Below, in pieces: positions 6,025-52,832 of a stretch of 64,000 nt of DNA; positions within the stretch are counted from its first letter, which is position 1, and the number at the start of each line of letters is the position of its first letter. This DNA comes from Levyella massiliensis (lineage in GTDB: Bacteria > Bacillota > Clostridia > Tissierellales > Peptoniphilaceae): the NCBI RefSeq assembly GCF_000308275.2, contig NZ_HG529491.1, positions 307,477 to 371,476 on the forward strand, given 5' to 3'. Position numbers and translations under genes: made by a program. The notes beneath the pieces were generated by a model, which was not told where the DNA came from, did no database searches, and saw nothing but the letters and a program-made list of their open reading frames with translations.

Positions 6025-6945
6025 ATGACTATAAAAGGAATTGATGTATCAACCTGGCAGGGATCGATTGATTTTAAGCGTGTAAAACAAAGCGGGATTA
6101 ACTTCGTCATTATTCGTGCAGGCTACGGCTCGGCACTTTCTCAAAAAGACAAGTGGTTTGAGACGAACTACGCCCGCGCCAAAGCGGCAGGTCTTCACGT
6201 AGGAGCCTATTGGTACTCCTATGCGGGAAGCGCCGCAGAGGCACGCGAAGAAGCACGTGTCTGCAAACAGGTGCTCTCCGGCAAGCAGTTTGACTATCCC
6301 ATCTACTTTGATTTGGAAGAAAAGTCACAGCTTGCCCGCGGACGGGCTTTTTGCGACTCGCTCATTCGAGCCTTTTGCAATGAGATGGAAGCTGGCGGCT
6401 ATTTTGCCGGATTCTACACATCGCTCTCAGCAGCAGTGAACAACGTTTCCGCTGATGTGAGAAACCGCTACGCCTTCTGGGTAGCGCAGTGGAACAGTCG
6501 CTGCACCTATCAGGGACAGTACGGTCTTTGGCAGTATTCCTCGAGCGGCTCGGTGCCGGGCATCGCAGGCAGATGCGATATGGATCTTGCCTATGTGGAT
6601 TATCCCTCCATCATCAGGAAAGGCGGCTTTAACGGCTATGGCAAAGGCACAAGCTCCGCCCCCGCAAGAAAGTCTGTCGATACGCTGGCCCATGAAGTCA
6701 TCTCCGGTGCTTGGGGAAACGGTGAGGACAGAGTAAATCGTCTTACCCAAACAGGCTACGACTACGACGCGGTGCAGGCACGCGTAAATGAGCTTTTAGG
6801 CATAAAGCCGAAAAAGTCCATCGACACACTTGCCCGAGAGGTCATCCGCGGCGACTGGGGAAACGGTAAGGACCGTGTAAACCGCCTGACGAAAGCAGGC
6901 TACGATTACGAAGCTGTACAAAAACGAGTAAACGAACTGCTCTAA
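6025..6945 (+). CDS. Endolysin: GH25 muramidase with two Cpl-7 repeats
   Basis: A 306-residue lysin with two modules. Residues 3-195 are a glycosyl hydrolase family 25 domain with GIDVSTWQG at the N-terminus (catalytic-type Asp 7) and YFDLEEK around residue 95. Residues 215-306 hold two tandem Cpl-7-like wall-binding repeats of about 43 residues, each with the pattern SxDTLAxEVIxGxWGNGxDRVNRLT. It hydrolyses the N-acetylmuramyl-glucosaminyl bond of peptidoglycan during phage release. There is no signal peptide, consistent with export through the adjacent holin. Confidence 0.93.
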   Translation: MTIKGIDVSTWQGSIDFKRVKQSGINFVIIRAGYGSALSQKDKWFETNYARAKAAGLHVGAYWYSYAGSAAEAREEARVCKQVLSGKQFDYPIYFDLEEKSQLARGRAFCDSLIRAFCNEMEAGGYFAGFYTSLSAAVNNVSADVRNRYAFWVAQWNSRCTYQGQYGLWQYSSSGSVPGIAGRCDMDLAYVDYPSIIRKGGFNGYGKGTSSAPARKSVDTLAHEVISGAWGNGEDRVNRLTQTGYDYDAVQARVNELLGIKPKKSIDTLAREVIRGDWGNGKDRVNRLTKAGYDYEAVQKRVNELL

Positions 6946-6962
6946 GCTGAATGCATTGATAT

Positions 6963-7009
6963 GCCCGCAAGGCGTGAGGAGAGATCTTCACTCCCTTGCG
7001 GGCTTTTTT
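6963..7009 (+). terminator. Terminator after the endolysin
   Basis: Ten-base perfect stem GCCCGCAAGG (6963-6972) with CCTTGCGGGC (6994-7003), a possible inner GTGA/TCAC stem, then six T. It closes the late operon. Confidence 0.88.
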
Positions 7010-7144
7010 ATTTTGTCCGCTCAACTTCTTCAAAAACCTCCAGTGGAACAGTGGAAGGCAGAAAAAGATTCGTCCATAACGCCTTCGTCTCTTCAGGGAG
7101 TGTTAGAGGGACAACAAGACCTGCCCTCTGTCTGGAGGGATGAT

Positions 7145-7552
7145 ATGACAAATGATGAAAAACAAAGCATTTACAACATGAGACGAAACGGTGCAAGTTA
7201 TGCCGTAATTGCTGCCATCTTAAATCTATCGAAAAGCACCGTGGCTTCCTTTTGCCAAAAAGAAGGCCTGAGAACAGGTTCCTCAAAAGCTTTAACAGCA
7301 CTACGCTACTGCAAGTATTGCGGAAAGCCACTGCCCGTCAAGGAAAAAGGGAAAGAGCAAAAATTCTGCTCAGAGCACTGCCGGATGAGCTGGTGGAAAG
7401 AGCATCCGGAAGAGCTGAATAAAAAGGCAATCTATATATTCACCTGCCCATGCTGCGGAAAAACTTTCACTTCCTATGGCAATGCGCACAGAAAGTATTG
7501 CAGTCATGCTTGCTATATCCAAGACCGATTCGGAGGCTCTCATGAAGACTGA
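7145..7552 (+). CDS. HTH and zinc-ribbon protein of the recombinase module
   Basis: 135 residues from ATG 7145, chosen for the upstream TGGAGGGATGAT. An open frame extends further left but crosses the terminator. Residues 1-45 look like a helix-turn-helix of the resolvase/sigma type (SYAVIAAILNLSKSTVASFC). Two Cys clusters follow: CKYC...CSEHC and CPCC...CSHAC, each able to bind zinc. Such proteins commonly precede paired serine recombinases in Clostridia prophages. A DNA-binding role is inferred; the exact function is unknown. Confidence 0.72.
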   Translation: MTNDEKQSIYNMRRNGASYAVIAAILNLSKSTVASFCQKEGLRTGSSKALTALRYCKYCGKPLPVKEKGKEQKFCSEHCRMSWWKEHPEELNKKAIYIFTCPCCGKTFTSYGNAHRKYCSHACYIQDRFGGSHED

Positions 7553-7724
7553 AGCCTTCGCATCCGAGCTTGCCTATGAAGTATCCCGCTCCATCCTCTT
7601 TTCTTGGCTCAAGCAAAACATCATCGATAAAGAGGAATTCATTCGTCTCGACCACGCACTCCTAAAGCGATACCACCCCGGCTTAGGTGCCTTATTTACT
7701 TGCTATTTCAGCTCTTTAGAGTGA
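7542..7724 (+). CDS. SHOCT-like small protein of the recombinase module
   Basis: 60 residues from ATG 7542, which follows CGGAGGCTCTC and overlaps the end of the preceding gene. The sequence has the SHOCT-like pattern (FSWLKQNIIDKEEFIRLD followed by KRYHPGLGALF), a short helical oligomerisation motif. Small SHOCT-type proteins often sit just before large serine recombinases. Its role is unknown. Confidence 0.65.
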   Translation: MKTEAFASELAYEVSRSILFSWLKQNIIDKEEFIRLDHALLKRYHPGLGALFTCYFSSLE

Positions 7725-7752
7725 TGTATAGACACGGAAAGGAGACGATTCT

Positions 7753-9519
7753 ATGGCTGAAATCATAAAAATCGAAGCAAAGAAATCACCGCTGCCAAAC
7801 CGCAAAAAAGTCGCCGCCTATGCCCGTGTCTCTATGGAAACGCAAAGGCTGCACCACTCACTGGCGGCACAGATCAGTTTTTATTCTGATTTGATACAAA
7901 AGAACCCCGAGTGGGACTATGCCGGAGTCTATGCCGATGAAGGCATCAGCGGCACATCAGTGGAAAAACGTCCCGAGTTTATGCGCATGATGAAAGACTG
8001 CAAGGCCGGAAAAATAGACCTCATCTTAACGAAATCCATCTCCCGATTCGCGCGTAACACGGTCGACCTCCTAAAAGTCGTAAGACAGTTAAAAGACCTC
8101 AACATCGAGGTCCGATTTGAAAAGGAAAAAATCAACTCACTTTCAGATGACGGTGAGCTGATGCTCACGCTCCTTGCCTCTTTCGCACAGGAAGAGACCA
8201 TCAGCATCTCCAACAACGTTAAATGGGCCATCCGAAAACGCATGTCCGAAGGAAACCCGAATATGCGAAATATCGTCTATGGCTACCGCTGGAAAGATGA
8301 CACCCTGATTGTTGTTCCCGAAGAAGCAAAGATCGTGCGGCGCATCTTTCAAAACTTCCTTGATGGAAAATCACGCCTTGAAACCGAGCGTGAATTTGCA
8401 GAGGAAGGCATTACAACCAGAAAGGGCAACCGCTGGACGGACTCCAATATTAAGGTTGTTCTGACCAATGTCACTTATACGGGAAATTTGCTCTGTCAAA
8501 AAGAGTTTGTCGAAGATCCCATTACCAAGAAGCGCAAGAAAAACCGCGGTGAGCTTCCTCAGTATTTCATCGCAAACACCCATGAAGCGATTATCGACAA
8601 GGAAACTTTCGACTATGTGCAAGAAGAGATGGCAAGAAGACGTGCTCTGGGACCTCGGGCAAACAAGAGCCTGAACATCTACTGCTTTACCGGAAAAATC
8701 AAATGTGAGCTGTGCGGGAAAAGCTATATGCGAAACGTCCGAAACAACCGTGCCAAGCACTCCAATCTTGGGAATAAAGTCATCAGCTGGGTATGCGGTT
8801 CCAGCAAGAAAAAGTACAGTACATGCTCGGCAAAAGCCATCCCGGATCGAATCCTTAAAACTTGCTGTGCCAAAGTGCTCGGTCTTGAGGATTTTGATGA
8901 TGCTGTTTTTAACGAGCAAATCGATAAAATCACGGTACCCAAACAAGGGGTTCTCATTTTCCATTTCAAAGACGGACACAGCGTCACCGAAACTTGGGAA
9001 AATAACGCCAAAAAAGAATCGTGGGATGATGCGGCGCGCAAACGCGCCTCAGAATATAGGCGCACTCATGCCATGAAACGCTCGGACGTCACCTGCTTTT
9101 CAACTAAAATCCGATGCGAACATTGCGAATGCAATTTTCGCGCACAAACACAAAACTGTTCAACATCTCCCAGCGGAAAACGCAGATACTGGCGATGTGC
9201 CGAACATAACGGCTGTGACACCAGAGGATTCAGAGACGACCTTTTGCGCTCACTTACCGTAGAGGTCTTAGGTCTTGATGCATTCGATGACGCTATTTTT
9301 CTTTCGAAGATCGACCATATCAGCGTCCTTAGCCGAGAAGACCTTATCTTTCATTTTTATGATGGAAAGGAAATTGCTCGCAAGCTGATCCAACCTACGC
9401 ACGAAGGACACAAGTGGACAGAGGAACAGCATGCGAAATTTAAAGCATCCATCAAAGAATGCTACGCGTCAGAGCGGCACAAACCGATACGAAAGGAGAA
9501 GCTATGGCCAAACAAGTAA
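7753..9519 (+). CDS. Large serine recombinase with a duplicated C-terminal module
   Basis: 588 residues. The N-terminal resolvase domain has the nucleophile in YARVSMETQ (Ser 27) and the conserved ISRFARNTVDLL region. A recombinase domain follows (about 185-290), then zinc-ribbon DNA-binding parts. The C-terminal half holds two copies of one module. Each is a Cys4-type zinc ribbon (CELC...C...C; CEHC...C...C) followed by VLGLxxFDDAxF, IDxIxV and LIFHFxDG (about residues 305-415 and 450-550). These enzymes integrate or excise mobile DNA, or act as a pair. It overlaps the next recombinase by 16 bases. Confidence 0.88.
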   Translation: MAEIIKIEAKKSPLPNRKKVAAYARVSMETQRLHHSLAAQISFYSDLIQKNPEWDYAGVYADEGISGTSVEKRPEFMRMMKDCKAGKIDLILTKSISRFARNTVDLLKVVRQLKDLNIEVRFEKEKINSLSDDGELMLTLLASFAQEETISISNNVKWAIRKRMSEGNPNMRNIVYGYRWKDDTLIVVPEEAKIVRRIFQNFLDGKSRLETEREFAEEGITTRKGNRWTDSNIKVVLTNVTYTGNLLCQKEFVEDPITKKRKKNRGELPQYFIANTHEAIIDKETFDYVQEEMARRRALGPRANKSLNIYCFTGKIKCELCGKSYMRNVRNNRAKHSNLGNKVISWVCGSSKKKYSTCSAKAIPDRILKTCCAKVLGLEDFDDAVFNEQIDKITVPKQGVLIFHFKDGHSVTETWENNAKKESWDDAARKRASEYRRTHAMKRSDVTCFSTKIRCEHCECNFRAQTQNCSTSPSGKRRYWRCAEHNGCDTRGFRDDLLRSLTVEVLGLDAFDDAIFLSKIDHISVLSREDLIFHFYDGKEIARKLIQPTHEGHKWTEEQHAKFKASIKECYASERHKPIRKEKLWPNK

Positions 9520-25511: not shown

Positions 25512-25526
25512 AATTCCTCTTCCTTT

Positions 25527-25542
25527 TGTTTCACATGAAACA
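25527..25542. promoter_or_regulatory. parS site 1
   Basis: TGTTTCACATGAAACA differs from the Bacillota parS type TGTTnCACGTGAAACA mainly at the central dinucleotide. It lies in the leader of cinA, between a candidate promoter and the ribosome binding site. Confidence 0.75.
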
Positions 25543-25560
25543 TTACCTGCCAATACCATA

Positions 25561-25569
25561 ATTATAGCA
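25561..25569 (-). promoter_or_regulatory. Candidate extended -10 promoter of the cinA-par operon
   Basis: The minus strand reads TGCTATAAT (25569-25561), an extended -10 element about 50 bases upstream of the cinA start. No good -35 was seen. Confidence 0.45.
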
Positions 25570-25623
25570 AAGGAGATGCAAAAATAAATTTTTACGTTAC
25601 GAATGGAATAAAATGAGACAAAA

Positions 25624-25639
25624 TGTTTCATATGAAACA
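25624..25639. promoter_or_regulatory. parS site 2
   Basis: TGTTTCATATGAAACA, a perfect 16-base palindrome of the parS class. Confidence 0.78.
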
Positions 25640-25663
25640 CCCAAAAGGATCCACATCTTGAAT

Positions 25664-25679
25664 TGTTTCATATGAAACA
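25664..25679. promoter_or_regulatory. parS site 3
   Basis: Identical to site 2 and exactly 40 bases from it. Confidence 0.78.
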
Positions 25680-25703
25680 TATAAAGGCTTGCAAAACATG
25701 AAT

Positions 25704-25719
25704 TGTTTCATGTGAAACA
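25704..25719. promoter_or_regulatory. parS site 4
   Basis: TGTTTCATGTGAAACA, the reverse complement of site 1, exactly 40 bases from site 3. It abuts the rsmG terminator. Confidence 0.78.
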
Positions 25720-43122: not shown

Positions 43123-44301
43123 GTGGAATATCAGGATCTTTACCGAAAAGAAGACGGCGCGTATGTCGGCAGACACATTCGAGGGAAGATGATTCCAAAA
43201 GGAACGTATCTTCATCTGGTCAGTGTGTTTACGCTCAACAGCAAACGTGAAATCCTATTGACACAGCGCGATCCCAAGAAAAGTCATCCCCTGGCCTGGG
43301 AAAACACAGGTGGGGCGGTGCAGGCGGGGGAAACGCTTCGCCAGGCGGCCAAACGTGAGTTGTTGGAAGAGACCGGCATCGAGGTAGCGGAAGAGGATCT
43401 GGTGTATCTCGGCCATTTAACGGTACGTCGGGAGCAAAATGCGCTGATGCACAGTTTTTTCATCCAGCGTGATGTTCCTCGTTCCGCGATTCGCCTCCAA
43501 GAAGGAGAAACGGTAGATGCCAAATGGGTGCCTTTCGAATGGTCTCTCTGTTTTGACACCTCTCTGGCGGAGCCCGTGCGCTTGCGCTTGATCTATTTTT
43601 GGCAGGAGCTGCAAAGCTTTCTCGATCCCATGCAGTCCAAGGACCCGCATCTCGTGGAAGCCGATCGCTATGAGCCTTGGCTTACCTGGGCAAAACAATT
43701 GCAGTTTTATGCGCAGCAGGGGCAGGCCTACACGAAGGATCCCTTTGACCGCGAGCGCTTTGATGCGATTTCAGCGATGGCTTGCGACATGATTGCACGA
43801 AAAACAGGGATATCGCCATTAAAAGTGCCGGGCCTTTTTGCACCGGTCGACAACCTGTATCGTACGCCGAATGTTGAAGTGCGTGTCGCCGTTTTTCGTG
43901 GCGATAAAATTCTCATGGTACAGGAAAAGCGCCCCGAAGACGCATGGTCTTTGCCGGGCGGTTGGTGCGATCCCGGCTTAACGCCCATGGAGAACGCGAA
44001 AAAAGAAGTGTGGGAAGAGGCCGGCATCCGTGTCCGCCCCACGCGCTTGATTGCCTTGGAGGATCGCGCGCACGAGGACTACCATTATAAATTTCCATTG
44101 GACGTCTATAAAATTTTCATTCTTGCCGAAGAATTGGAGCCCGGCACCGATGCCTTCCAGGAAAATATCGAAACCACCGATGCACGCTTCTTTGCTTTGG
44201 ACGATTTACCAAAGTTGAGTGAAGCACGCGTCAGCGTTCGTGCGATCCGGCAATGCTTTGCAGCAAAAGACGATCCGCATTGGAACGTATATTTTGACTG
44301 A
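43123..44301 (+). CDS. Double NUDIX hydrolase (two NUDIX domains fused)
   Basis: 392 residues from GTG 43123, with AAAGGTGAGA upstream. The first NUDIX domain (about 1-170) has an intact box GAVQAGETLRQAAKRELLEE. The second part (about 195-392) has an all-helical NUDIX N-terminal extension (YTKDPFDRERFDAISAMA) and a NUDIX fold whose box starts GWCDPGLTPMENA and ends KEVWEEAGI, with Leu at the first conserved Glu. The halves look like two separately known proteins, the first near IPP-isomerase/YfcD-like enzymes, the second near nucleotide-sugar hydrolases. Substrates unknown. Confidence 0.87.
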   Translation: MEYQDLYRKEDGAYVGRHIRGKMIPKGTYLHLVSVFTLNSKREILLTQRDPKKSHPLAWENTGGAVQAGETLRQAAKRELLEETGIEVAEEDLVYLGHLTVRREQNALMHSFFIQRDVPRSAIRLQEGETVDAKWVPFEWSLCFDTSLAEPVRLRLIYFWQELQSFLDPMQSKDPHLVEADRYEPWLTWAKQLQFYAQQGQAYTKDPFDRERFDAISAMACDMIARKTGISPLKVPGLFAPVDNLYRTPNVEVRVAVFRGDKILMVQEKRPEDAWSLPGGWCDPGLTPMENAKKEVWEEAGIRVRPTRLIALEDRAHEDYHYKFPLDVYKIFILAEELEPGTDAFQENIETTDARFFALDDLPKLSEARVSVRAIRQCFAAKDDPHWNVYFD

Positions 44302-44352
44302 AGCATCTGCTTTTTATGTATCATCGGTGGCCAATGCTGCCGCCTAACGAAT

Positions 44353-44654
44353 TACAGTACTATTTTGGCAATTTACGAAAAGTACTGTAGTCATTTTGCC
44401 TGATTTACAGTACTAAAAGCCTTTCTGGCAAAAAGTACTGTAGTTTTTCGACCCCATTTACAGTGCTTTTCAAAAGAATTGCCATTTGCACTGTATTTTT
44501 TTCGCACATTTTACAGTACAAATTCTATTAATCGCTAAAAGTACTGTAATTGCGGCACTTTTTGTACAGTGCAAATTTCACTTTCCGCCAAAAGTACTGT
44601 AATTGCGGCACTTTTTCTACAGTGCAATTTCTATTTTTCGATAAAAGTACTGTA
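44353..44654. repeat. Array of six inverted repeats, exact 53-bp period
   Basis: Six units of exactly 37 bp start at 44353, 44406, 44459, 44512, 44565 and 44618, all 53 bp apart. Each is TACAGT(A/G)C, 21 variable bases, G(T/C)ACTGTA. In unit 3 both arms changed together (TGC/GCA), and units 5-6 have a G-T pair, so pairing is kept. The array lies between the convergent NUDIX and ABC exporter genes. No coding function is credible. Confidence 0.92.
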
Positions 44655-44776
44655 TCGGCCGCCGGATTCGCAGGTTTTCCCGCCGCCACAGGCGCTCCTG
44701 ACACCGCAGGAATCTGAGGTGGCACACACGGTTCAGCTTGGCAGGTTTCCAGACGCCTCCGGCCGCAGCACTCGCC

Positions 44777-46636
44777 TTAAGCCAATTCCTCCATGCCTTT
44801 ATTCAAACGATAATAGCGACCTTTTTTCGCCATGAGATCATCATGATCGCCGCGTTCTACAATCTGGCCGTCTTCCAACACCATGATGGCGTTGGCATCG
44901 CGAACGGTGGAGAGGCGATGAGCGATGACAAAGGTCGTGCGGCCTTTCATCAATTCATCCATACCGGCAGCGATGAGTTTTTCCGTATGCGTATCGACGG
45001 AGCTCGTGGCTTCATCCAAAATGAGGATGACAGGATCGGCAACGGCAGCGCGCGCGATGGCCAACAGCTGGCGTTTGCCTTGGGACAACTCACCATCGGT
45101 GTCAGAAATCATGGTATCGTAACCGTCCTTCAGGCGACGGATGAAATGGTCGGCATGGGCCAGTTTTGCAGCGTGTTCCACTTCTTCATCCGTGGCATCC
45201 AGGCGCCCGAAGCGAATATTTTCACGAATGGTGCCGGTGAACAAATGTGTTTCCTGCAAGACCATGGAAAGGATCGAACGTAAATCGCGCTTATCAATAT
45301 CCTGCAAAGGCATACCGTCCACCGTGATGGTGCCTTTGTCGATTTCGTAGAAGCGATTGATGAGGTTTGTAATGGTGGTTTTGCCGGCGCCGGTGGAGCC
45401 GACGAGAGCAATTTTTTGACCGGGTTTGGCATAGAGAGAGATGCCCTTCAGGACAGGGTGGTCTTCGTCATAGCCAAAATACACATCGTCAAAGCGGACA
45501 TCGCCATGGACGGGCGCTTTCTGTTCCAAAACAGCCCCGTCCGTTGCCGCTTCATCGGCGGTGTTGCGGCGCTCCCAATATAGTTTTTGCGTTTCCGGAT
45601 CGGCCCACAAACGAACGGAGCCATCCATAACTTCAACGGGTTCATCCATCAGGCGGAAGATACGCTCGGCGCCGGCAATGGCGGCAAGAACGCCGTTTAA
45701 CTGTTGCGAAACCATGGTGACCGGGCGATTGATCGTTCGTGTGTATTGCATGAAGGCCGTCAAAGCACCGATCGTCATGGTGCCGCTCATGGTGTAAAAG
45801 CTGCCGATGAGGGCCACGACCGCATAGAGGACGTAAGAAAGATTGCCCATGATCGGGAAGCTGATCACACCAAAGGTGGCAGCGTCCGTGGCGATTTTCT
45901 GCACGTCATCCGAGCGCTTGTCGAAGGCAGAAATGACGGTATCCTGTTGATTGAAAAGCTGTACGACCTGCTGCGCGGAGAGCATCTCTTCAATATAGCC
46001 GTTCATTTCACCGATTTGTTGCTGGCGTTTGCGATAGTAGCGGGCGCTGCGGTGTGAAATGACGCGCATCACCCAGATGGTCAAAACCGAGAAGGCAATG
46101 GTCACGAGGGTGAGTTGCCAACGCAGAATAAACATCATGAAAAGGGTTGAAGTGAACTGAATGATGGACAGTAAAAACTGCGGCAAGGCCTGCTGAATGG
46201 TTTGCGTCAAGGTATCCACGTCATTGGTAAAGGACGACATGATTTTACCGTGGGCCGTATGGTCAAAAAAGGTTATGGGCAGGGCCAGAACATGCTGATT
46301 CATATCGTTACGTAAGCGATAGATTGTACGTTGAGACAGCTCTGCCAACCACAAAAAGCCGAAGTATTCGGTAAGGGTAGCTACGACAAAAACCAAGGCC
46401 ATGATGACGATATTGCGGAAGAAGAGGGAGAGGTCGTGCTGGACGGCTACGGCATCTACGACAGGCGCCAGAAAGCCGTTTCCCACGACACTCAAAAAGG
46501 TGGAGAGCACCACCATCAATAAGCCCCCGACAAAGATGGCCTTATTGTAGCGAAAATACGCAAATAATCGCTTCAGGACAGGAATATTCAGTGTCGCACG
46601 AGGACGCTTCTTCTGTTCGTTGTTTGCATCGCTCAT
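44777..46636 (-). CDS. Half-size ABC exporter, subunit 2
   Basis: 619 residues: a membrane domain (about 30-330), a linker with an acidic insert, then an ATPase with Walker A GSTGAGKTT, signature LSQGKRQLLAIARA and Walker B LILDEATSSVD with its catalytic Glu. Together with the upstream gene it forms a heterodimeric type IV exporter of the LmrCD/TmrAB kind; the substrate is unknown (drugs, lipids or peptides). The start overlaps the stop of subunit 1 by 4 bases. Confidence 0.9.
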   Translation of the reverse strand: MSDANNEQKKRPRATLNIPVLKRLFAYFRYNKAIFVGGLLMVVLSTFLSVVGNGFLAPVVDAVAVQHDLSLFFRNIVIMALVFVVATLTEYFGFLWLAELSQRTIYRLRNDMNQHVLALPITFFDHTAHGKIMSSFTNDVDTLTQTIQQALPQFLLSIIQFTSTLFMMFILRWQLTLVTIAFSVLTIWVMRVISHRSARYYRKRQQQIGEMNGYIEEMLSAQQVVQLFNQQDTVISAFDKRSDDVQKIATDAATFGVISFPIMGNLSYVLYAVVALIGSFYTMSGTMTIGALTAFMQYTRTINRPVTMVSQQLNGVLAAIAGAERIFRLMDEPVEVMDGSVRLWADPETQKLYWERRNTADEAATDGAVLEQKAPVHGDVRFDDVYFGYDEDHPVLKGISLYAKPGQKIALVGSTGAGKTTITNLINRFYEIDKGTITVDGMPLQDIDKRDLRSILSMVLQETHLFTGTIRENIRFGRLDATDEEVEHAAKLAHADHFIRRLKDGYDTMISDTDGELSQGKRQLLAIARAAVADPVILILDEATSSVDTHTEKLIAAGMDELMKGRTTFVIAHRLSTVRDANAIMVLEDGQIVERGDHDDLMAKKGRYYRLNKGMEELA

Positions 46637-52300: not shown

Positions 52301-52360
52301 TCTACTGCTGTTGCTTATATAGTTGCCCGCCGCAGGCGGACACCTTCTTGGCGTGCGTAT

Positions 52361-52832
52361 CCCATGTTATTTTAAGAAACGGCAAATAACATGGGGTGGC
52401 ACGGTAGATTTTTCGAGGTTTTACCCCATGCTATTTTAAGAATGCAGAAATAACATGGGGTACCGCGGCCGTCTTTTCGAGGTTTTACCCCATGCTATTT
52501 TAAGAAACAGGAAATAACATGGGGTATTTGCGTTTTTTTCACCCCATGTTATTTTTCAAATCGAGAGATAACATGGGGTAAACCAGTACTTTTCGAGATT
52601 TTTCACCCCATGTTATTTTTTAAATCGAGAGATAACATGGGGTAAACCAGTATTTTCAAGATTTTTCACCCCATGTTATTTTTTAAATCGAGAGATAACA
52701 TGGGGTAAACCAGTACTTTTCAAGATTTTTCACCCCATGCTATTTTTAAAATGCTGAAATAACATGGGGCACCGCAGCAGTTCTTTCGATATTTCGCTCC
52801 ATGTTATTTTCAAACCAACAAATAACACGAGG
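52361..52832. repeat. Array of eight inverted repeats, mostly 64-bp period
   Basis: Eight 35-bp units start at 52361, 52425, 52489, 52543, 52607, 52670, 52734 and 52798; spacings are 64, 64, 54, 64, 63, 64 and 64. Each has arms CCCATG(T/C)TATTT and AAATAACATGGG (the right arm is sometimes one A shorter), usually extended by ACC/GGT outside, around 11 variable bases. Units 2, 3 and 7 carry the C variant (a C/A mismatch) and unit 8 is degenerate. It lies between convergent udk and purL. Confidence 0.92.

Follow-up and report, generated by a model that had tools for sequence, protein, structure and literature searches.

In the REP/RAYT system, as passages of PMC8266576 describe it, a gene is bordered by palindromic repeats and many cognate repeats are dispersed in intergenic positions; the repeat co-evolves with the protein, and the gene behaves as a housekeeping gene. 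In TIGR-Tas, according to passages of PMC12045711, a tandem array lies upstream or downstream of a nuclease-type gene; the repeats are conserved within a locus and vary between loci, and the 36-nt unit is made of two 8-12-nt repeats and two spacers of about 9 nt.

The arrays considered here, from Levyella massiliensis (genome G000) and its relatives, appear to share with REP/RAYT (the REPtron; TnpA-REP, REP/BIME) a repeat-bordered gene together with dispersed repeats, "cognate" here meaning that the arms match. They differ in having a PD-(D/E)XK-like protein instead of Y1/HUH, in being built of spaced half-sites in apparently helically phased arrays whose pairing is not conserved, and in showing no conserved tetranucleotide beside the arms of the family to which the array under study belongs. 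The Y1/HUH (RAYT) profile PF01797 had no match in G000, G001, G003 and G004 and one in G002, with matches in 5 of 14 control genomes as positive control; membership in REP/RAYT was rejected on the absence of a Y1/HUH protein from four array-bearing genomes and on hairpin pairing that is not maintained. As in the TIGR-Tas loci of the cited passages, the arrays adjoin a nuclease-type gene and the repeats are locus-specific; unlike those described there, the array under study has a period of 53 bp rather than 36, with 8-bp arms and gaps of 21 and 16 bp, and pairing is not conserved in the arrays of its genome. The Nop domain (PF01798) was found in none of 13 genomes (control matches in 4 of 14 control genomes), and its absence, with the period, excludes TIGR-Tas. 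The conserved full-length repeat of a CRISPR array is absent as well: only the 8-bp arms are strongly conserved in this family. No description of such arrays, or of the nuclease-type family with arrays, was found in open-licence PubMed Central papers; the pairing of array and protein is apparently new and the protein family undescribed, with an organising logic that parallels REP/RAYT.

The window (the whole stretch of 64,000 nucleotides that was analysed) contains two such arrays of different families (Table 1). For the first, the earlier note had described six 37-bp units at steps of exactly 53 bp between convergent genes; all six units and all five steps are as it said, and its coordinates were confirmed throughout. 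Downstream, the array ends 123 bp before the stop end of the convergent ORF. The flanking ORFs, one with two NUDIX stretches and the other presumably an ABC transporter from its sequence motifs, are regarded as neighbors only. This array is one of the genome's solo copies, and the gene of its putative cognate protein (G000:C1:755166-756011, minus strand) lies outside the window. The second array also sits between convergent genes; its CCCCATG arms recur to either side of the gene for another family member (G000:C1:777806-778567), and a relaxed pattern finds 44 units of the family in the genome (control 0). Elsewhere in the window, at 25520-25719, there are four palindromes of the TGTTTCAYRTGAAACA type: three follow one another at 40-bp steps, and the fourth precedes them by about 100 bp; we take them to resemble parS.

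Table 1. Arrays, units and flanking genes in the window; positions are counted from its first letter.
Feature	Positions	Strand	Sequence or remark
Flanking ORF, two NUDIX stretches	43123..44301	+	stop 52 bp before array start; neighbor only
Whole array	44353..44654	.	period 53 bp; one of ten TACAGTRC arrays in genome
Unit 1	44353..44389	.	TACAGTAC-N21-GTACTGTA
Unit 2	44406..44442	.	TACAGTAC-N21-GTACTGTA
Unit 3	44459..44495	.	TACAGTGC-N21-GCACTGTA
Unit 4	44512..44548	.	TACAGTAC-N21-GTACTGTA
Unit 5	44565..44601	.	TACAGTGC-N21-GTACTGTA
Unit 6	44618..44654	.	TACAGTGC-N21-GTACTGTA
Flanking convergent ORF, read as ABC transporter	44777..46636	-	neighbor only
Second array, other family	52360..52769	.	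CCCCATG-N23-CATGGGG; steps 64, 64, 54, 64, 63, 64

Across the 1.71-Mb genome the TACAGTRC arm pattern gives 47 exact units and its reversed control none (at 3 mismatches the count is 66 vs 34 in the control, and was not used as evidence). They are spread over ten arrays: seven consist of six units, a pair in locus L005 has seven and eight, and one more is interrupted by an insertion. By this pattern the genome also contains dispersed solo copies. The steps measure 53 bp, apart from 54 following a 38-bp unit in both arrays of L008 and a single 71 in L010; at 6640-7960 of L010 an orfA/orfB element, presumably IS3-like, is inserted inside a TACAGTRC array. That the array might prove to be a single strain-specific duplication, which the earlier note had named as fatal to its reading, was rejected: there are ten arrays with diverged centers, two pairs of which are recent duplicates.

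The exact TACAGTRC arms are absent from all 60 relatives searched, and a three-arm pattern had no match in genome_contigs or viral_contigs, a search from which near records may be missing. A de novo detector of repeated inverted arms, supplied with no arm sequence, found arrays in three congeners: G001 has 6 and G003 13 in samples of 400 kb each, and G004 has 7 in 300 kb, 5 of these 26 being GCGCCGC repeats of a different appearance. The samples of G002 (80 kb), G018 (20 kb), G006 and G008 (200 kb apiece) gave none, and neither did order-2 Markov resamples of the scanned sequences. The congener arrays have other arms (CCCTGGC, CCCTGAY, GATGGTG, GTAGAGT or TGTAGAG, TGTGTCC, TTACGGC) in a similar geometry. 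The earlier note's refuting condition, that related genomes lack the array or show random spacing, therefore has a split outcome: the exact arms are missing from the 60 relatives, but similarly spaced arrays with different arms are present in three congeners. GCGCCGC/GCGGCGC repeats with 21/41-bp steps also occur near phased arrays in congeners (L083, L084, L048). Dispersed solo copies also occur in other genomes: of ten searched with a further pattern, TACGGTT, the richest were G065 (114 units) and G066 (52), followed by G061 and G070 with 17 apiece; four more had between 3 and 8 units, and two had none. The control found nothing but a single unit in G064. Several G065 contigs end inside or just past arrays (L255, L261, L263, L266, L267, L269), and array copy numbers in draft genomes are for this reason lower bounds.

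What ties these differently spelled arrays together is a protein family. In L008, a 282-aa ORF is flanked by two direct-repeat TACAGTRC arrays that are 94% identical over 308 bp. Matches to its family number 6, 6, 4, 5 and 5 in G000 to G004, respectively (the six of G001 include pieces of one broken gene), and 4, 5 and 6 in G007, G010 and G016; 23 of the 31 genomes have none. Of the six L. massiliensis members, five lie no more than 1.5 kb from an array, each with its own arm sequence; for the sixth (G000:C2:42124) the nearby array, with CCCATGT arms, is about 1.8 kb off. With 1.5-kb flanks included, 14 of the 30 family loci hold strict arrays: 12 of the 19 from the genus, and 2 of the 11 from G007, G010 and G016. 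For comparison, 3.8-kb windows of the congener samples hold a strict array in 18 of 275 cases, and 36 loci of other genes, a set in which array-bearing genomes are poorly represented, hold none. A wider search of genome_contigs confirmed at least 520 relatives, of which 80 were retained, mostly from Lachnospiraceae and Peptoniphilaceae (in the latter we presumptively place relatives from Murdochiella, Kallipyga and Helcococcus); these 80 loci overlap partly with the genes of the 30-locus set and many are related, so the counts are not independent. Strict arrays occur at 27 of the 80, and none of the 31 such arrays is more than 941 bp from the gene; 26 are upstream, nine of them less than 70 bp from the matched start, and 5 are downstream. 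A lenient criterion found arrays in 30 of 78 upstream windows vs 0 of 135 distant ones, and upstream autocorrelation reached z >= 6 in 59 of 78 vs 4 of 137 control windows, two of those four falling in L164 and L189, which themselves contain arrays. There remain 16 of 30 and 53 of 80 family loci with no strict array, and 19 of 78 with no upstream period at z >= 6. Taken together, the counts show that genes of this predicted nuclease-type family tend to adjoin such arrays. Inspection of 59 of the 80 loci found no partner gene common to most of them; at 12 of the 59 (e.g., L186, L190, L196) the family gene stands in one common neighborhood, whose genes we take to be rplM and rpsI (ribosomal proteins L13-S9).

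The arm sequence goes with the protein lineage, as far as the sequences show. Five L. massiliensis members have nearby arms TACAGTAC, CCCCATG, AAAGGCA, GGTAATG and CTAGGTA; CCCTGAY arms are common to L134, L141 and L156, whose proteins are 83-90% identical and come from different species; TGTAGAG arms are common to L132 and L133 (proteins 93% identical), the L133 array being decayed to one exact unit and two decayed ones; and CCCTGGC arms are common to the near-identical members L148 and L149. L142 and L157 have TGTGTCC units; L140, 74% identical to L142, has none. In a test that used only part of each genome's family loci, 9 of 13 genome-and-family pairs seen as arrays had an arm match at a family locus of the same genome and 4 did not, with unexpected matches in 6 of 23 pairs, partly through cross-matching of similar arms. 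Over 32 loci the correlation of arm with protein similarity is weak (rho 0.24, 0.28, 0.24) and no better for the sheet tip of the protein than for other parts; in this set L185 and L231 contain stops and L132 was assigned a neighboring GCGCCGC array.

The protein itself would have two parts. Three members had no match in NCBIfam, and eight had nothing above the curated cut-off in Pfam; PADLOC profiles match the C-terminal part (PDC-S68, 2.6e-28; HEAT_CxxC_PDDEXK, 1e-5), and a Holliday-junction-resolvase profile, phrog_9019, matches weakly (E about 0.001). E170, D200 (in PDFT) and E215 are invariant in 24 aligned sequences, and the usual lysine is not obvious; the C-terminal domain is PD-(D/E)XK-like and nuclease-type by sequence, with predicted activity. 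A structure model (mean pLDDT 87.8) has long helices at 4-31 and 70-105, strands at 39-43, 50-56 and 63-68 between them and the nuclease-type domain after, so that the N-terminal part is modeled as a coiled coil with a three-stranded sheet at its tip. By VIA, the best neighbor of the nuclease-type domain is the I-Bth0305I domain (Z 8.6, rmsd 3.0, 92 residues), with Bax1 and TnsA (TnsA Z 7.6) among further neighbors; Foldseek gave none at E <= 0.001. In catalytic-domain arrangement or profile the family thus resembles the PD-(D/E)XK proteins I-Bth0305I, TnsA, the Vsr domains and PDC-S68/S69, but the likeness is modest, is confined to the C-terminal domain and, as a likeness between a model and known folds, shows no function. 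For the N-terminal model alone the neighbors are chiefly coiled-coil proteins, prefoldin among them, with Z up to 8.6 and a large rmsd, and Foldseek found no match; integrase arm-binding domains, to which a likeness had been considered, were absent among the structural neighbors listed, and a sequence search of solved structures returned two chance-level matches only. A phage origin was rejected, one of 64 candidate viral stretches giving a weak C-terminal match; 7 plasmid records match in the C-terminal domain only, at least 4 of them in differently named proteins.

Step lengths within the arrays cluster at 41-45, 52-55 and 62-65 bp, or about 4, 5 and 6 helical turns; a list of family steps compiled by hand, which omits the exceptional ones, has all 54 of its entries in these three bands. 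The exceptions are 71 bp in L010, 75 in L184, 49 in L082 and 45 in L264, which reads as a deleted unit. In five families two of these bands occur, the step shifting by about 10 bp within an array; unit width ranges from about 35 to 50 bp across families. The lags upstream of family genes are 52-55 in 47 cases, 63-64 in 7, 86 in 3, and 48 and 36 once each; most lags being near 53, a Rayleigh test would be unfair, and phasing was judged by the separate bands and one-turn switches. The bands fit sites kept on one face of B-form DNA, and the suggestion that 53 bp approximates five helical turns has gained from the families at about four and six.

The arms are also what is kept. Over 61 units of the genome, a set that includes near-duplicate arrays, arm positions carry 1.06-2.00 bits, compared with less than 0.5 at spacer positions and most center positions, and 0.75 to 1.1 at A/T-rich positions beside the arms and at the unit center; the earlier observation that only the arms are conserved therefore extends genome-wide. 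Between the arrays common to G003 and G004, 145 of 147 arm sites agree, against 345 of 441 sites in the remainder of the array (p = 3e-11), counting units with at most one arm mismatch and leaving out shorter overlapping alignments of the same arrays; the units were picked by their arms in one genome, which somewhat favors the arms. Agreement among G065 copies (11 of 14 aligned copies, from 20 stretches) is 96% in arms, 80% in centers, 78% in spacers and 58% in flanks. Judged by these alignments, the arms stay while the rest of the array drifts.

Pairing between the arms is another matter. The earlier note had pointed to compensatory and G-T changes in the window, and one unit changed in both arms and two with G-T do occur there; its inference that pairing is under selection fails genome-wide. 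At the variable arm pair the 61 units have A-T 31 times, A-C 15, G-T 8 and G-C 7 (Fisher p = 0.36), and in 48 of them, omitting the second copies of two duplicated arrays, pairing over a 12-bp stem chosen by the analyst is below that of 500 of 500 shuffles; stem pairs 1-6 hardly vary, and are hence uninformative on pairing. On these counts and the shuffle result hairpin or cruciform pairing finds no support: as far as the units themselves tell, the half-site sequence is conserved and base pairing is not.

Of the roles proposed in the earlier note, the evidence favors a phased protein-binding array. We put the probability at roughly three in four that the units are helically phased sites to which a cognate two-part protein of the nuclease-type family binds, the binding being a prediction from linkage, arm matching and spacing. 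The protein would read one arm with its N-terminal part, a dimer would span both arms of one unit, and successive dimers would align on one DNA face as a cooperative complex. An array at the protein's own gene, most often upstream, may regulate that gene's expression; at solo arrays such as that in the window the protein could make a nucleoprotein block, for which the candidate benefits are local insulation, restraint of the nuclease, or array-to-array recombination initiated by a cut. A broader proposal is held more tentatively, at somewhat under even odds: that this is an undescribed system, widespread in Bacillota, in which a PD-(D/E)XK-type protein with an arm that reads sequence assembles on helically phased, lineage-specific palindrome arrays, controls its own gene at them and maintains or spreads the dispersed arrays, in the manner of a REPtron that has another enzyme and acts on double-stranded DNA.

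Another possibility, a serious one that nonetheless seems more doubtful than probable, is that the arrays are a mobile repeat family: non-autonomous elements copied or moved by the nuclease-type protein through cutting and then homologous or transposition-like repair, with the array-flanked gene as the autonomous form and solo arrays as remains, like solo LTRs. All five pairs of gene-bracketing arrays that were examined are direct repeats; four enclose a gene of the family (L008, L195, L191 and L271, the last compared over 63 bp), and the fifth, in L005, encloses another operon; there, at 6054-9045, an operon that we take to be GntR-ABC-permease lies between two direct-repeat TACAGTRC arrays, with a duplicated stretch before each. 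The dispersed copies (47 exact units here, 114 in G065, 52 in G066) would also be expected of such elements, as would the positional homology of whole arrays: among five six-unit arrays of the genome, centers at the same position are slightly more alike than others (0.464 vs 0.412, permutation p = 0.0015), and the whole arrays are therefore related. Against this, the retention of arms while the rest drifts points to selection after insertion, and one common neighborhood at 12 of 59 loci is as expected of an inherited gene. The insertion boundaries in G065 also count against it. There, 6 of 14 array copies examined lie between inverted repeats of the GTTACTTTTCA type, which stand outside the array at distances of 84-89 bp in front and 95-121 bp behind; three of the six have perfect 8-9-bp direct duplications (ATTCCGGC, GAACAGTA, GCGCTTGCG), the others degenerate ones or none. 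With these terminal repeats and duplications, the array there rides in a MITE-like unit, and the solo arrays of G065 may have been spread by another transposase; the G065 gene in L178 is not inside such terminal repeats. Around the L. massiliensis arrays, unlike MITEs, no common flank, terminal-repeat boundary or target duplication was found by eye and by blastn of 250-bp flanks. A phased inner structure and a link to a nuclease-type gene are not known features of MITEs.

The upstream array might instead serve as an operator through which a potentially harmful nuclease regulates its own gene, and the dispersed arrays as a sink that titrates it. The position of 26 of the 31 strict arrays upstream, nine of them close to the matched start, is somewhat in favor of this, as is the retention of arms in an array that lies at least some 4 kb away (49 of 49 sites in the arms vs 131 of 146 others). 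We nevertheless consider it rather unlikely: several members have the array downstream (L139, L147, L151, L153, L158), and selection on any single one of ten sinks should be weak.

A purely local role, as an insulator or transcription roadblock between operons, is improbable. All ten TACAGTRC arrays appear intergenic by rough ORF calls, except where spurious-looking ORFs overlap parts of those in L005 and L010, and that in the window lies between convergent genes. The roadblock between convergent genes suggested in the earlier note is not general, however: several of the ten arrays lie between co-directional genes, and for the 32 of 34 arrays with both neighbors, in this genome and three congeners, the orientations are mixed (+- 9, ++ 11, -- 4, -+ 8, again by rough ORF calls). 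The linkage to the protein gene would also be left unexplained. A transcribed hairpin RNA array, offered in the earlier note and considered here in a guide-like (TIGR or CRISPR-like) form that tandem arrays with variable centers and spacers beside a nuclease-type gene might suggest, is highly improbable: base pairing is not conserved and stem pairing falls below all shuffles, steps change by quanta of one DNA helical turn, for which an RNA array would give no reason, the Nop-domain protein is absent from 13 genomes, and the best Rfam match in window positions 44000-45000, rliH, scores 15.5 bits vs a gathering score of 100.

Read as phased binding sites for a cognate protein, the arrays would tie a common, uncharacterised protein family, with its at least 520 relatives, to a visible DNA target. 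If the proteins bind the arms, the sequence alone gives each lineage's site, and recognition would be comparable over dozens of natural pairs; the arrays would likewise be a natural test of helical phasing. If true, this would be a second, chemically different case of dispersed repeats living with a resident nuclease in bacterial genomes.
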